Source: Tepidisphaeraceae bacterium
GTDB taxonomy: Bacteria; Planctomycetota; Phycisphaerae; Tepidisphaerales; Tepidisphaeraceae
Reading direction: 5' to 3'
DNA length: 64,000 nucleotides
Assembly: GCA_035998445.1 (NCBI GenBank)
Contig: DASYHQ010000050.1
Span: forward strand, 1-64,000
In this document: piece by piece, positions 1-38,763 of the stretch
Numbering within the stretch: the first letter of the stretch is position 1
Layout of the letters: every line of letters begins with the position of its first letter
Position numbers and translations under genes: made by a program
Notes under the pieces: generated by a model
The model's database searches: none
What the model saw: only the letters and a program-made list of their open reading frames with translations
What the model was told of the DNA's origin: nothing

Positions 1-109
1 GATGACAACCAGGTTTGCACCGATGACAATCGAGTTTTCACCGATGCAAACTGAGTTTGCACCGATGCCAATCGAGGTTGCACCGATGCCAATCGGGTTT
101 GGCATCGCC
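1..109. repeat. Degenerate 21-bp tandem array (array 1), cut by the window edge
   Basis: Five units begin at 1, 22, 43, 64 and 85, an exact 21-bp period with no indels. Conserved words are GATGMCAA at the start and GTTTGCACC at the end of each unit; the middle varies. The last unit closes with TTGGCATC, the inverse of its opening GATGCCAA, so the core word occurs in both orientations. It probably continues beyond the left edge. The remaining bases to 300 hold element A1 and no convincing gene. Confidence 0.85.
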
Positions 110-20276: not shown

Positions 20277-21179
20277 ATGACCCCACTCCGCCCCCCCATC
20301 GATCGCGAGAAGCTCCGCCAGCACCGCCGTCGGCGGTTTCGCAGGCACGGGCGGCGGGCGTACGTGCGCAGCGTCTACTTCCTGCCCAGCCTCGCCACGC
20401 TCGGCAACGCCATCTGCGGCTTCGGCGCGATCTACGTCGCTGGCCTCTGGATCGACCGCGGCTCGACCGACCCGCTCACCCAGCGCTTCGCCTCGCACGC
20501 GTTCGAGTACGCCGTCTATTTGATCTTCCTGGCGATGGTGTTCGATGCGTTGGATGGCCGGCTCGCAAGACTGACGCGCCACACGACCGACTTCGGGGGC
20601 CAGCTCGACAGCCTCGCCGACGTCATCAGCTTCGGCGCCGCCCCGGCGTTCATCGCGCTGCAGGTCTTTAAGAGCGCCGACTTCGACGTCTCCTACCCCG
20701 TCAGCCGACTCATCTGGGCGATCGGCGCCCTATACCTTGCCTGCGCGGCGTTGCGCCTCGCCCGCTTCAACGTCTCCAACGAGCATGGCGAACAGCACCA
20801 CTTCAGCTTCCTTGGCCTGCCCAGCCCCGGCGCGGGCGGCGCGGTGGCGGCGTTCGTGCTCATGGTCCAGCAGCTGCGCGTGGATGGTTTCACAACGCTG
20901 TACCACATCGGCGTCGGCATGCTGCCGCTGGTCGTGCTGGCGACGGGCCTGCTGATGGTCAGCGACATCCGGTACCCGCACGTCGTCAACCGCTACCTCC
21001 GCGGCCGGCGGTCGATCCCGCAGCTCATCATCGTCGTCGCCCTCATCCTGCTGCTCATCACCAAACCGCAGTACACGCTCGGCATCGGCCTGCTGATCTA
21101 CAGCGTCTGGGGCGTGTGGTTATGGGCCTATGCGCGCATCGTGCGTCGGAAGATCGTGGAAACGCCTCCGGTGACCTGA
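20277..21179 (+). CDS. pssA: CDP-diacylglycerol-serine O-phosphatidyltransferase
   Basis: A 300-residue integral membrane enzyme of the CDP-alcohol phosphatidyltransferase family that makes phosphatidylserine. The signature DGxxARx8GxxxDxxxD is visible as DGRLARLTRHTTDFGGQLDSLAD. About eight hydrophobic spans follow a basic, arginine-rich N-terminus. AAGGA 8 nt before the ATG supports the start. With psd upstream it gives PE synthesis; the order psd-pssA is common. A long run of nested repeats follows before gltX. Confidence 0.93.
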   Translation: MTPLRPPIDREKLRQHRRRRFRRHGRRAYVRSVYFLPSLATLGNAICGFGAIYVAGLWIDRGSTDPLTQRFASHAFEYAVYLIFLAMVFDALDGRLARLTRHTTDFGGQLDSLADVISFGAAPAFIALQVFKSADFDVSYPVSRLIWAIGALYLACAALRLARFNVSNEHGEQHHFSFLGLPSPGAGGAVAAFVLMVQQLRVDGFTTLYHIGVGMLPLVVLATGLLMVSDIRYPHVVNRYLRGRRSIPQLIIVVALILLLITKPQYTLGIGLLIYSVWGVWLWAYARIVRRKIVETPPVT

Positions 21180-21198
21180 CCCACATCAACTCGTCATC

Positions 21199-21488
21199 CT
21201 GAGAGGGTGTCAAAGGACATGGTCGCGGTCGCCTGCTACCGTGGCATGGGCGTCTCGCCCATGCTCGTCGTGAGGCCAGGACGTTCTATTTGGGTCGGAG
21301 GCTCGGCCGGCGCGGCAGCCACCAATAGGGTTCCTCGTTCCAGTCCACACGCATGGGCGGGACGCCCATGCCACGGTCGGAGTGGACGCGGCATGGTTCT
21401 TTGACACCCTCTGAGGTACCCCGAAGGATCTCCCCCCGTATTCGCACACGGAAGAGAAGAGATCCTCCGGAGTACCTCAGGATGACGA
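21199..21488. repeat. Nested palindromes: element C copy 2 inside an outer pair, with element D copy 1
   Basis: Outer arms CTGAGAGGGTGTCAAAG (21199-21215) and its complement (21398-21415) enclose element C (21239-21380, inverted relative to copy 1). The right side merges with element D (21411-21488: TGAGGTACCCCGAAGGATC...GATCCTCCGGAGTACCTCAGGATGA). The stack fills the first part of the 810-nt pssA-gltX spacer. Confidence 0.8.
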
Positions 21489-21600
21489 ACGCAGCCGCCG
21501 GGTGCCACGGGTCGCGGTACCCCAAGTCCTGTGTCTTCGTCCGCAGCAAAAGACGTGGGTCTGCCCGTACGCCGACCTGTGGCACTGGGCCTTGAAAGAA

Positions 21601-21850
21601 AACGGCGAGGCTTCTCGTTCAATGGGAGGGCGTGTCGTTTACTCTGAGGGTTGCACAGTAAACGAGAGGGCGTGTCGTTTACTGTGAAGGGCTCAGGGTA
21701 AATGGGAAGACCGCAGGGAAAATGAGCGGGCGTGAGAGTAAATGCGCGGGCGTCAGGGTAAATGGGAAGGCCGCAGGGAAAACGAGAGGGTCGCGCAGTA
21801 AACGAGAGGGCGTGAGGGTTACTCTGAGGGCGTGAGAGAAAACGAGAAAG
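21601..21850. repeat. Degenerate 20-bp tandem array (array 2), 12 units plus a partial
   Basis: Units begin at 21601, 21621, 21641 and so on to 21841, an exact 20-bp period over 250 bp without a single indel, although units differ by up to half their bases. The middle word GAGGGCGTG is best conserved. The unit junction reads either AGTAAAC-like or its inverse GTTTACT-like, so the core occurs in both orientations. Because 20 is not a multiple of 3, the array cannot be a conserved peptide repeat. It lies between the pssA-side palindromes and gltX; no gene is seen in 21489-21989. Confidence 0.88.
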
Positions 21851-21989
21851 CATTATTCGGACCTTCGCCGGGCAAGCCGATGTAGCGGGCGCGGGGCCGT
21901 GCCTTAGCGATGCGGCTAACACGCATGAATTTTCGCCCCGCCCCCATAGCGTTGATTCCCGCCCCGTTCGCCCGATAATCGCTCGCCTT

Positions 21990-23630
21990 ATGAGCCAACC
22001 CGCCGTCGTCACCCGTTTCGCCCCGTCCCCCACTGGTTACCTGCACGTGGGCGGCGCCCGCACCGCGCTGTTCAACTGGCTGTTGGCCAAGCATTCGGGC
22101 GGGCAGTTTCTGCTGCGCATCGAAGACACCGACCTCGCCCGCAGCACCGACGACGCCACCCGGCAGTTGCTGGAAGACCTGAAGTGGCTCGGGTTGAACT
22201 GGGACAATGCCGAATTGGTTTATCAGTCCAAGCGGCTCGACGTTTACAACAAGCTGATCGATGGCCTCATCGAGAAGGGGCACGCCTACGAGGCCTGGGA
22301 GACGACCGAGGAACTGACGGCAATGCGCGACCAGGCCGCCCGGGCCAAGCGGCCGTTCCTGTATCGGCGGATGACCTACACCGCCGACCAGTTGGCGAAG
22401 TTTAAGGACGACGGCCGCAAGCCGGTCATCCGCTTCGTGATGCCCGTGAAGGAATATCGCTTCAAGGACGAGGGGCTTGGCAAAGAGGTCGTGCAGAGCC
22501 AGTACGAGAGCCAGGATTTCGTCATCCGAAAAACCGACGGCATGCCGACGTATCACTTCGGCGTGGTCGTCGACGATGCCGAGATGGGCATCACCCACAT
22601 CCTGCGCGGCCAGGAACACCTGAAGAACACCTTCAATCACATCGCCCTGCAGGAGGCGCTGGGCTACGAGCGGCCAACGTATGCGCACCTGAGCGTGCTG
22701 CTGAACCCCGAGGACGGATCGAAGCTGTCGAAGCGCGACCGCGACAAGCGCATCCGCAAGCGCGCCACCGACTGGATGCGTTCCACGAAGCGGTCGCTAA
22801 CCGACCTTGCCGCCGCCACAGGTTTGGGTGAAGCGCGTCTGAAGGAATGGATTGACGTCGACACCACGCAACTCAGCCTCGAGGAACAGCCGAACGTGAT
22901 GCGCGTCGTCGGCCTGAAGGAGGCGGATTTGCCCGAGATCATGGTCCACGACTTCCGCAAGAACGGCTACGTGCCGGAGGTGCTGAACAACTTCCTGGCC
23001 CTGCTCGGCTGGAGCCCCGGCGGCGATCTGGAACAGATGTCGATCGACCAGATGGTCGAGAAGTTCGGCCTGGACCGGCTGATCTCGGCCAACTCGAAGT
23101 TCAACCGCGACAAGCTGAAATCCTTCAGCACCGACTACTTCGCCAAAGCATCGCCCGCACAGTTGATCGCGCACCTGCGCGACTACCTGAAGGTGAACCC
23201 CAACTCGCCGTTGAACAACGCCACCGACGAACAGCTTGCCAAGGTGCTGTCGATGAACGCCGGCTTTCACATCCTGAGCGAGGTGGACGAAAAGAGCGCC
23301 TTCCTGTTCACCGCCGACGACGCGATCGTGTACTCGCCCGATGCCGTCGAGAAGGTGTTGAAGAAAAACGAGCAACAGGGCCTGACCGCGTTGCGCGAGC
23401 TGCGCGACGTGCTGGTGGGCGCGGCCGACTGGACGAGCCACGACGCGCTGGAAGCGGTCGTCAAATCCTTCTGCGAAGCGAAGGCGCTGGGCCTGGGGAA
23501 GGTCGCCCAACCGCTCCGCGTCGCGTTAAGCGGCACGGCGGTCAGCCCGCCGATCTTTGACTGTCTGGCGTTCTTGGGGAAGGACAAGACGCTGGCGCGG
23601 ATCGACCGCTGCGTGGCGCAGGTGGGATGA
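21990..23630 (+). CDS. gltX: Glutamyl-tRNA synthetase
   Basis: A 546-residue class I synthetase charging tRNA-Glu (possibly also tRNA-Gln; no amidotransferase is in the window to judge). The HIGH-like motif is in FAPSPTGYLHVGGARTALFN; RIEDTDLARS follows; the KMSKS-like motif is SKLSKRD. GVVVDDAEMGITHILRGQEHLKNT is the usual discriminating segment. The C-terminal anticodon-binding domain is longer than in many homologues (typically about 470-500). The ATG at 21990 (MSQPAVVTRFAPSPTG) is the natural start. It is monocistronic, between array 2 and element E. Confidence 0.97.
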   Translation: MSQPAVVTRFAPSPTGYLHVGGARTALFNWLLAKHSGGQFLLRIEDTDLARSTDDATRQLLEDLKWLGLNWDNAELVYQSKRLDVYNKLIDGLIEKGHAYEAWETTEELTAMRDQAARAKRPFLYRRMTYTADQLAKFKDDGRKPVIRFVMPVKEYRFKDEGLGKEVVQSQYESQDFVIRKTDGMPTYHFGVVVDDAEMGITHILRGQEHLKNTFNHIALQEALGYERPTYAHLSVLLNPEDGSKLSKRDRDKRIRKRATDWMRSTKRSLTDLAAATGLGEARLKEWIDVDTTQLSLEEQPNVMRVVGLKEADLPEIMVHDFRKNGYVPEVLNNFLALLGWSPGGDLEQMSIDQMVEKFGLDRLISANSKFNRDKLKSFSTDYFAKASPAQLIAHLRDYLKVNPNSPLNNATDEQLAKVLSMNAGFHILSEVDEKSAFLFTADDAIVYSPDAVEKVLKKNEQQGLTALRELRDVLVGAADWTSHDALEAVVKSFCEAKALGLGKVAQPLRVALSGTAVSPPIFDCLAFLGKDKTLARIDRCVAQVG

Positions 23631-24256: not shown

Positions 24257-24310
24257 GGTCCGTTGTCAGTGGTCCGTTGTCTGTGGTCGGTGGTCGGTGG
24301 TCGGCTGTGG
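24257..24310. repeat. Simple GTCCGTTGTC/GGTCGGTG repeat
   Basis: Tandem short repeats between divergent smpB and the TPR-like gene. The word GTTGTCAGTGGTCCGTTGT recurs, inverted, at about 39442-39463 before the rhamnose cluster. Confidence 0.6.
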
Positions 24311-24399: not shown

Positions 24400-25230
24400 A
24401 TGGAATCGGATCAGCCGCAGAAAGTGCAAGTGAAGCGAAGCGACGCCACCGCCGCCCCGGAGAAGTCCGGGTTGATGGTGTTCTGGGACAAGTACGCCAA
24501 CCGCATCCTGATGGGGTTGACGTTCCTCGTCGTGCTTTACCTGCTGATCCAGTACCGCACCGGCGCCGAACGCCGCGCCACCGCCGCCAGTTGGGACAAC
24601 CTGGCGGCCGCCCGGGAGAAGGTCGCGCAGTTCCGGTCGATGGAGGACATGATGCGCCTGCCGCCCGACCAGATCATGCGGGAGGCCGTCTCGCTGGAAC
24701 AAAGTGCGGTGCCTGCGCTCGACGCGATTCTGGACGACGGCGGGCAGACGAAGCTGCACGCCCAGGCCTGGGTGACGCGTGGCGACTTGTTCTGGACGCT
24801 GGCGAACCTGCCGACGTTGCCCGCCGCCGCAACGCAGCCCGCGTTGCAGCCGAGCCGTACCCCCACCGAGTACCTGACGACCGCCGAGGCCGCCTACCAG
24901 AAGGCCGTGGACGCGACGGAAGACACCGTCAGCGCCCTGGCCGGTCGCTTCGGCCTGGCCGCGGTCGCCGAGAATCGTGGCAACTGGGACGAAGCGAAAC
25001 AGCAGTACCAGGCGATCGTGAACGCGCCCGCGGTGCTGCCATCGATGAAGACGCTGGCGGAGAGCAGGCTGGCGCAGGTCGACGAGCTGCGCAAGCCGTT
25101 GTTTACGTCCCCCACCACGGCCCCCGCGACCGCGACGACCGTGCCGGCAGCGGCGGCATCTGCCACGACGCTACCCGCGGCCGCAGCGGCATCGCCCACC
25201 ACGGCTCCGACCACCGCGCCGGCACCTTAA
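24400..25230 (+). CDS. Membrane-anchored TPR-like protein (YfgM-type architecture)
   Basis: 276 residues: a polar N-terminus, one transmembrane span (about residues 33-49, ILMGLTFLVVLYLLIQY), then a helical, tetratricopeptide-like periplasmic part (ATAASWDNLAAAREK; TAEAAYQKAVDATEDTVSALAGRFGLAAVAENRGNWDEAKQQY) and a long low-complexity Thr/Ala/Pro tail. The architecture resembles YfgM/Tpr_21 proteins that work near SecYEG and periplasmic chaperones, but this is by topology only. The ATG at 24400 is chosen because the frame upstream runs into the smpB promoter. It precedes the pseudouridine synthase by 47 nt. Confidence 0.7.
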   Translation: MESDQPQKVQVKRSDATAAPEKSGLMVFWDKYANRILMGLTFLVVLYLLIQYRTGAERRATAASWDNLAAAREKVAQFRSMEDMMRLPPDQIMREAVSLEQSAVPALDAILDDGGQTKLHAQAWVTRGDLFWTLANLPTLPAAATQPALQPSRTPTEYLTTAEAAYQKAVDATEDTVSALAGRFGLAAVAENRGNWDEAKQQYQAIVNAPAVLPSMKTLAESRLAQVDELRKPLFTSPTTAPATATTVPAAAASATTLPAAAAASPTTAPTTAPAP

Positions 25231-38292: not shown

Positions 38293-38452
38293 CGCGCGAG
38301 GCGGGGGACATGAGGGAAACTGCAGCATACGTTCATGTTATCGACACGATCCCCCTGCCACTTGATCGCAATGTTGCCCGGCAGATTGTTTCCGCCATCC
38401 CCATTGACGAAAACGGGCGTCGACCGGCAATGGACGGCCCGGCGGCGGGTTG

Positions 38453-38738
38453 CCGCATAACGAAAGTAATCGTCCGCATAACGAAGCAAGGCAGCCGCGT
38501 AACGAAAGTAGTCGTCCGCATAACGAATCAAGGCGTCCGCATAACGAAACTGTTAAGCCGACGCTCGGAGTCGACAAGTCTCGTTATGCGGGCAATCAGA
38601 TCCGTTATGCGGGAGACAAGCTCCGTTATGCGGGTGACACGCACCGTTATGCAGCGGACAAGCCCCGTTATGCGGGTGACAAGCGTCGTTATGGAGCCGA
38701 CGAGTTTCGTTATGCGGCTGGTCGGATTCGTTATGCCG
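38453..38738. repeat. Bipolar 21-bp array of 13 units built on the attC-like core (array 3)
   Basis: Left arm: five units beginning CCGCATAACG-like at 38453, 38474, 38495, 38516 and 38537. Right arm: eight units of the opposite orientation, CGTTATGCGG-like at 38582, 38603, 38624, 38645, 38666, 38687, 38708 and 38729. Every step is exactly 21 bp. Left units 1 and 3 share one 9-nt filler (AGTARTCGT) and 2 and 4 another, giving a 42-bp super-repeat. Frames read through it in both directions only because 21 is a multiple of 3. The 471-nt gap 38293-38763 holds nothing else recognisable. Confidence 0.92.
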
Positions 38739-38763
38739 ACGGTTGAACGGAGCGGGCGAAATG

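Follow-up and report, generated by a model that had tools for sequence, protein, structure and literature searches.

Between the pssA and gltX genes of a Tepidisphaeraceae bacterium lies a region with no gene, in which array 2, a row of twelve 20-bp units, varies widely in sequence and keeps to its 20-base steps. The question that this locus raises is what holds a non-coding array in register and what such an array is for. The window referred to below is the whole stretch of DNA analysed, 64,000 nucleotides (G000:C50:1-64000), in a draft genome of 5.84 Mb.

Units and copies of array 2

When region 21601-21860 is compared with itself at lags of 20, 40, 60, 80, 100 and 120 bp, identity is 0.58, 0.57, 0.63, 0.59, 0.54 and 0.54, against a background of 0.21-0.33 at lags 17-19 and 21-23. 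This bears out the sequence-only reading of twelve 20-bp units without an indel. In a third-order Markov control of 570 kb no window is as periodic as array 2, and when 1186 non-coding 260-bp windows from this genome are compared, better 20-bp periodicity is found only in other arrays of the same class. The same reading had the units differ at up to half their bases; the variation is real, but its extremes were understated, as pairwise identity of the in-register units (n=12, 21615-21854) averages 0.59 and ranges from 0.20 to 0.95. It had also described a word flipping between AGTAAAC and GTTTACT. The flip exists and is finer than that: the 11-bp core consists of two 5-bp arms (arm A, AGRGT; arm B, TCGTT) flanking one base, and these half-words flip independently, with a separate choice on each side of the central base. 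All four combinations occur, A-b' 8 times, B-a' twice, and B-b' and A-a' once each in the window (24, 6, 3 and 3 summed over the three copies of the array described below). The 9-bp spacer keeps its orientation and does not invert with the arms. The neighbouring genes had been placed correctly (Table 1).

A coding origin of array 2 was rejected, as a 20-bp period cannot hold a reading frame; the gene calls do not include a minus-strand ORF (21236-22033) that covers the array and extends into gltX. A CRISPR array was likewise discarded, given a 20-bp unit without unique spacers and pssA and gltX as neighbours. Rfam matches near the array are spurious microRNA matches to neighbouring palindromes. 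Nested dispersed palindromes (CATGGGCG..., CCTGAGGTACTCC...) lie at window 21198-21485 and recur as dozens of partial copies in the part of the genome that was sampled, and a short heptamer repeat, GGTCGGT, lies at window 24257-24304, just upstream of a gene called at 24400-25230.

Two further copies of the 261-bp array are present in this genome, one at C59:41607-41867 (91% identical, 23 mismatches, no gap) and one at C18:318142-318402 (85% identical, 38 mismatches, no gap). The number of units and the order of flipped units are the same in all three. Their flanks are homologous: to the left all have a GTGCCAC hairpin, to the right a tail of ~35 bp; a three-way alignment shows neither clean termini nor a target duplication. 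Near arrays the density of GTGCCAC hairpin words is ~5x that of intergenic DNA in general. Array 2 is absent from 60 relatives, none of which belongs to the same genus. The copy on C59 sits 284-355 bp upstream of L143, a gene of the protein family described in the next section.

Table 1. Features of the window, and orphan arrays with their gene-linked matches ("mothers") in the same genome
Feature	Position	Strand	Remarks
Array 2, 12 units of 20 bp (each an 11-bp core with two 5-bp arms, plus a 9-bp spacer, GAGGGCGTG-like)	window 21615..21854	+	
pssA-like CDP-alcohol phosphatidyltransferase, left neighbour	window 20277..21179	+	outside the system; name from sequence and the sequence-only reading
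gltX, right neighbour	window 21990..23630	+	outside the system; start ~130 bp past the end of array 2
Array 2 with ~35 bp of right flank	window 21600..21896	+	common to G000:C59:41571-41879 (-) and G000:C18:318113-318434 (-)
GTGCCAC...GTGGCAC hairpin element	window 21506..21592	.	left of array 2 and of both other copies
ATTATTCGGACC, instance of boundary motif TTTTATCGGACG	window 21852..21863	+	putative promoter or binding site; points at gltX
Array of the class, 21-bp period	window 1..101	.	at contig edge; matches the L157 array weakly
Array of the class, 21-bp period, two halves opposed (CCGCATAACGAA / TTCGTTATGCGG)	window 38452..38740	.	
Orphan array	window array 2		mother L143 (G000:C59:40568-41260)
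Orphan array	C18:318142		mother L143
Orphan array	C59:6745		mother L159
Orphan array	C18:80900		mother L144
Orphan array	C18:132170		mother L157
Orphan array	C18:318570		mother L152
Orphan array	C12:7760		mother L149

Arrays, linked genes and orphans

Array 2 is one of a class of arrays. When ~1.13 Mb (1134 kb) of this genome was scanned for periods, 24 arrays were classed as non-coding, a few of which overlap small ORFs accepted by a home-made gene caller. The fundamental period of the clearly non-coding arrays is 20 (6 arrays) or 21 (16, a few of them weak), and none of them has a period of 17-19 or 22; a period of 22 occurs in one gene-linked array. Each array has a different word, related groups excepted. 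Dyad symmetry is significant (P<0.05 against column-permuted units) in 28 of 53 gene-linked arrays and is also present in most of the own-genome arrays listed. The remaining non-coding repeats in the scan are heptamer tracts, short GC-rich repeats and dispersed palindromes; a perfect heptamer tract, (GCATTCG)n at G000:C18:503946-504148, represents a different kind of repeat that is common in this genome. In ~566 kb sampled from ten genomes that lack the family genes described next, no 20-22-bp non-coding array was found.

When the neighbours of the arrays were translated, six proved to encode one protein family. A profile search places ~24 genes of the family (26 matches) in this genome. Of 60 relatives 16 have the family, as do 20 of 392 genomes sampled from the phylum, where its distribution is patchy, extends over several classes and is multi-copy in nearly all cases; some paralogues have internal stops. 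By a fixed synteny rule (a 20/21/22-bp array within 700 bp of the gene), an array lies upstream of 20 of the 24 family genes of this genome and of 33 of 51 homologues sampled elsewhere in the phylum, compared with 26 of 833 genes at large in this genome (3%, family genes included). Downstream of the 75 family genes there is none. Two further genes of this genome have a more distant array (L149, ~680 bp; L152, ~1150 bp). About a third of the homologues elsewhere are without a detectable array, some perhaps owing to contig ends or decay. The gene-linked arrays run to about 5-30 units, each of 20-22 bp, with words that as a rule have dyad symmetry, and at L213, L214 and L216, outside the window's class, they end 3-30 bp before the gene. 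Period modestly follows protein clade (5 changes against 6.8; 5 of 200 shuffles gave a count no higher).

Most gene-linked arrays of this genome carry, at the end facing the gene, the boundary motif TTTTATCGGACG, whose likelihood is 79.5, compared with 35-44 in shuffles; the motif also occurs in some held-out genomes. A search with one family member found no phage or plasmid carrier of the family, and viral contigs searched with an FN3-subfamily pattern gave none. A contig search with one sufficiently conserved pattern returned 3 loci, the related records being Humisphaera sp. and Phycisphaerales.

Arrays without an adjoining family gene are called orphans here and their gene-linked matches mothers, labels that imply no proven direction of copying. 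Seven of 17 orphans have a match of 126-345 bits among the gene-linked arrays of their own genome (Table 1), whereas arrays of other genomes give at most 44 bits. The other 10 have no strong mother among the arrays examined; no clear mother was found for the array at window 38452-38740. In that array the left half reads CCGCATAACGAA and the right half is its reverse complement, an inversion on a large scale and not word by word. The cognate gene of array 2 is on another contig (L143, C59), and the mother's boundary motif is kept in several orphans, array 2 included (ATTATTCGGACC). Placement of orphans upstream of particular host genes was rejected, the neighbours being unrelated; divergent gaps are in excess (10 of ~20 arrays versus 24%), partly because of the family genes.

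Register is kept in these pairs. The seven orphan/mother pairs together contain 382 mismatches and 9 gap openings (0.024), compared with 172 gap openings per 1287 mismatches in other dispersed repeats of this genome and gap/mismatch ratios of 0.06-0.40 in four dispersed palindrome families under the same scoring, palindromes that may be unusually indel-prone; the deficit of indels is thus moderate evidence that phase is constrained. Both other copies of array 2 being free of gaps, the idea of a locked register stands, and neither loss of the 20-bp register nor gradual decay, both looked for, appears in the copies and pairs.

Turnover of words is supported at another locus. L179 (G037) and L180 (G054), from two genomes of one genus, look orthologous: identity is 81% in the protein, 81% in the leader and 80% in the downstream DNA, and the distance from array to gene is identical (201 bp). 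Their arrays have only the gene-proximal 83 bp in common; elsewhere both words and unit numbers differ, and the period is 21 in both. The turnover of whole units that the sequence-only reading suggested, with unit number changing and period kept, is supported at this pair but not among the copies of array 2, whose unit number and order are unchanged. At the gene-side array end of both L179 and L180 the boundary motif (TTCTGGGACG-like) itself occurs three times in 21-bp steps. Words also differ between the paralogues L160 and L161 (66% protein identity) and between L143 and L149 (65%), the arrays of the latter pair having a similar GAGGG-like spacer and different cores. Since close paralogues have different words, binding of array by protein would demand very fast co-evolution. 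Between the two arms of a unit there is no compensatory co-change (52 versus 57 expected). Complementary pairs within units are in excess (z 5.2), but selection for a within-unit hairpin was rejected, and because double changes are complementary no more often than expected, the excess probably reflects decay at array edges.

The linked protein and the explanations weighed

The family protein is ~220-240 aa long and cytosolic-looking, with an N-terminal helical bundle and a C-terminal FN3 domain. An AlphaFold2 model (pLDDT 93) places the bundle at residues 10-99 and the FN3 domain at 111-219; the latter residues align with 6pol_C over 98 residues (Z 12.4, rmsd 2.5). The bundle, predicted alone at pLDDT 96, shows no likeness to solved DNA-binding domains (best Foldseek E 1.1), and its best Z with VIA is 8.8, a kind of score that is uninformative for helical bundles. 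Its neighbours (talin, alpha-catenin, designed bundles) were set aside as generic helical bundles, and nothing was concluded from them. At L149 (G000:C5:135762-136289) 30-bp tandem repeats replace the C-terminal part, so the encoded protein loses its FN3 end.

Pfam, NCBIfam and PADLOC give no family match above cutoff and PHROGs none that convinces; a Hoc-like PHROG, matched by 2 of 44 members at 5e-5, is read as the FN3 domain, which is not a usual reader of DNA. The near-invariant residues of the family are P, G and A, and no conserved catalytic residues, transposase or nuclease were found in it. Ala-Ala ends 58 of 69 members, often as IAA, LAA or MAA, compared with 4.9% of the proteins in this genome. 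The ssrA degradation tag ends in LAA, and by this analogy the Ala-Ala ends may be degrons. The median pI is 9.1 against a background of 6.4. A basic pI and an ssrA-like C-terminal Ala-Ala would fit a short-lived DNA binder, although the fold is not a known DNA-binding one.

The association of array and gene is shown, and from these observations we conclude that array 2 is a dispersed orphan of an undescribed system of array and protein. Most likely it would offer the cognate protein a DNA target with many sites, a reading put at a little short of an even chance. The system has two parts, a gene for the FN3/helical-bundle protein and, directly upstream, an array of 20-22-bp units. The array would act as double-stranded DNA, with half-sites lined up along one face of the helix (two turns being 20-21 bp), to which the cognate protein would bind cooperatively, repressing or tuning its own gene through the array, and C-terminal proteolysis would keep the protein scarce. 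Orphans such as array 2 might titrate the protein, or put neighbouring DNA, here the pssA-gltX region, under its control. Unit turnover would replace words array-wide, and selection would keep the phase. It is because of the two helical turns, the inverted half-words, the dyads and the upstream placement that duplex DNA read by a protein is favoured; confidence in the cognate protein is tempered because a DNA-binding fold is missing and words change fast between close paralogues. The wider idea of a self-diversifying protein-DNA address system, in which each paralogue acts on its own array, the word is replaced locus by locus, protein assembly fixes the phase and orphans extend the reach, is put forward more tentatively still.

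The array might instead work as RNA. In this unlikely reading, transcribed array RNA would bind or control the protein in the manner of a type III toxin-antitoxin system, and orphans would be solitary antitoxins. A repeat array directly upstream of the gene, locus-specific words and many patchy paralogues, some with internal stops, would suit it, and, as RNA, either strand of array 2 does fold better than its shuffled versions (z -4.65 and -4.54). That excess, however, is equal on the two strands and arises because the words are inverted, and the 20-21-bp period and half-words inverted in place suggest duplex DNA. Compensatory changes within units were not found, Rfam, PADLOC and toxin families gave no match, and no RNase-like fold is among the structural matches of the model. 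No likelier is a non-autonomous, REP/RAYT-like mobile element made of array, boundary motif and left hairpin and spread by the linked gene or other machinery. The words have few copies (1-3 each), the absence of transposase, nuclease or catalytic residues from the family and of termini or target duplications from the three-way alignment speaks against mobility, as does the lack of a phage or plasmid carrier; yet hairpin, array and right tail are common to the three copies of array 2, orphans keep the mother's boundary motif, GTGCCAC hairpins are enriched near arrays and the distribution is multi-copy and patchy.

A phase-variable or tunable promoter, whose unit number sets the expression of an adhesin-like FN3 protein that never touches the array, is improbable. 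The relation of orphans to gene-linked arrays and the flipped half-words would go unexplained, and no signal peptide is evident by eye in the sequences, even though the upstream placement, the variable unit number, the FN3 domain and a boundary motif that could be a promoter element are what it would lead one to expect. We give least credence to neutral minisatellites, functionless tandem repeats built near these genes by slippage. Some arrays are indeed nearly perfect and recent (C18:132170), and structural variants in intergenic tandem repeats are common in lake Planctomycetota according to the available text of PMC9426551. Slippage nevertheless leaves unexplained the single 20-21 period, the deficit of indels, the upstream-only placement before one protein family across classes and the absence of arrays from the sampled genomes without the family.

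Known systems and the meaning of the arrays

In plasmid iterons, sites of ~17-22 bp stand in helical register immediately before a Rep gene of ~230-300 aa, and autoregulation is expected. The present arrays resemble them in register and placement only: there are ~24 loci per genome, each with its own word, there is no sign of a replicon, and the protein is a helical bundle with FN3 and not a winged helix, without a Pfam or NCBIfam match above cutoff to a replication initiator family. Type III toxin-antitoxin systems likewise have tandem repeats before a small protein gene and many patchy paralogues. The repeats here are shorter, the units more numerous and the words dyad-symmetric and inverted, and a fold match was not seen; ToxN/AbiQ, CptN and TenpN gave no Pfam, NCBIfam or PADLOC match above cutoff, and the fold comparison was dominated by the FN3 domain.

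REP/BIME elements with their RAYT (TnpA-REP) are described, in the available parts of PMC2817692 and PMC3116915, as palindromic, orientation-alternating dispersed repeats that share a genome with a cognate gene. Dispersed palindromic repeats and a cognate gene are found here too; in contrast, the word is specific to each gene, the period is fixed at 20-21 bp, copies are few, and the linked gene has no match to a Y1 (HUH) or tyrosine-transposase family. With its twelve 20-bp units array 2 is also a prokaryotic satellite as defined in the available text of Subirana and Messeguer (2019, PMC6749651), namely at least 4 tandem units of 10-200 nt with internal regularity; Rhodopirellula baltica is listed there. 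Intergenic tandem repeats are reported without explanation in the accessible portion of the study of lake Planctomycetota (PMC9426551). Both concern non-coding tandem repeats, and in the parts of these two sources at hand a linked protein family, a fixed two-turn period and inverted words are not mentioned. No array-gene system of this kind was found in the open-access literature. With the reservation that the genome survey covered Planctomycetota and the literature was open-access, the system appears new in kind, since each system that it resembles fails a tested defining feature or, for type III toxin-antitoxin, lacks confirmation.

A nameless protein family goes together, in several classes of Planctomycetota, with arrays whose sequence varies and whose spacing is nearly always kept. 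Should the protein bind them, this would be a new sequence-specific array system with many independent specificities per genome, useful for studying the co-evolution of binder and site; if it does not, the strict two-turn period in non-coding DNA needs another explanation. Some intergenic tandem repeats reported from this phylum without an explanation may also be explained by the array system.
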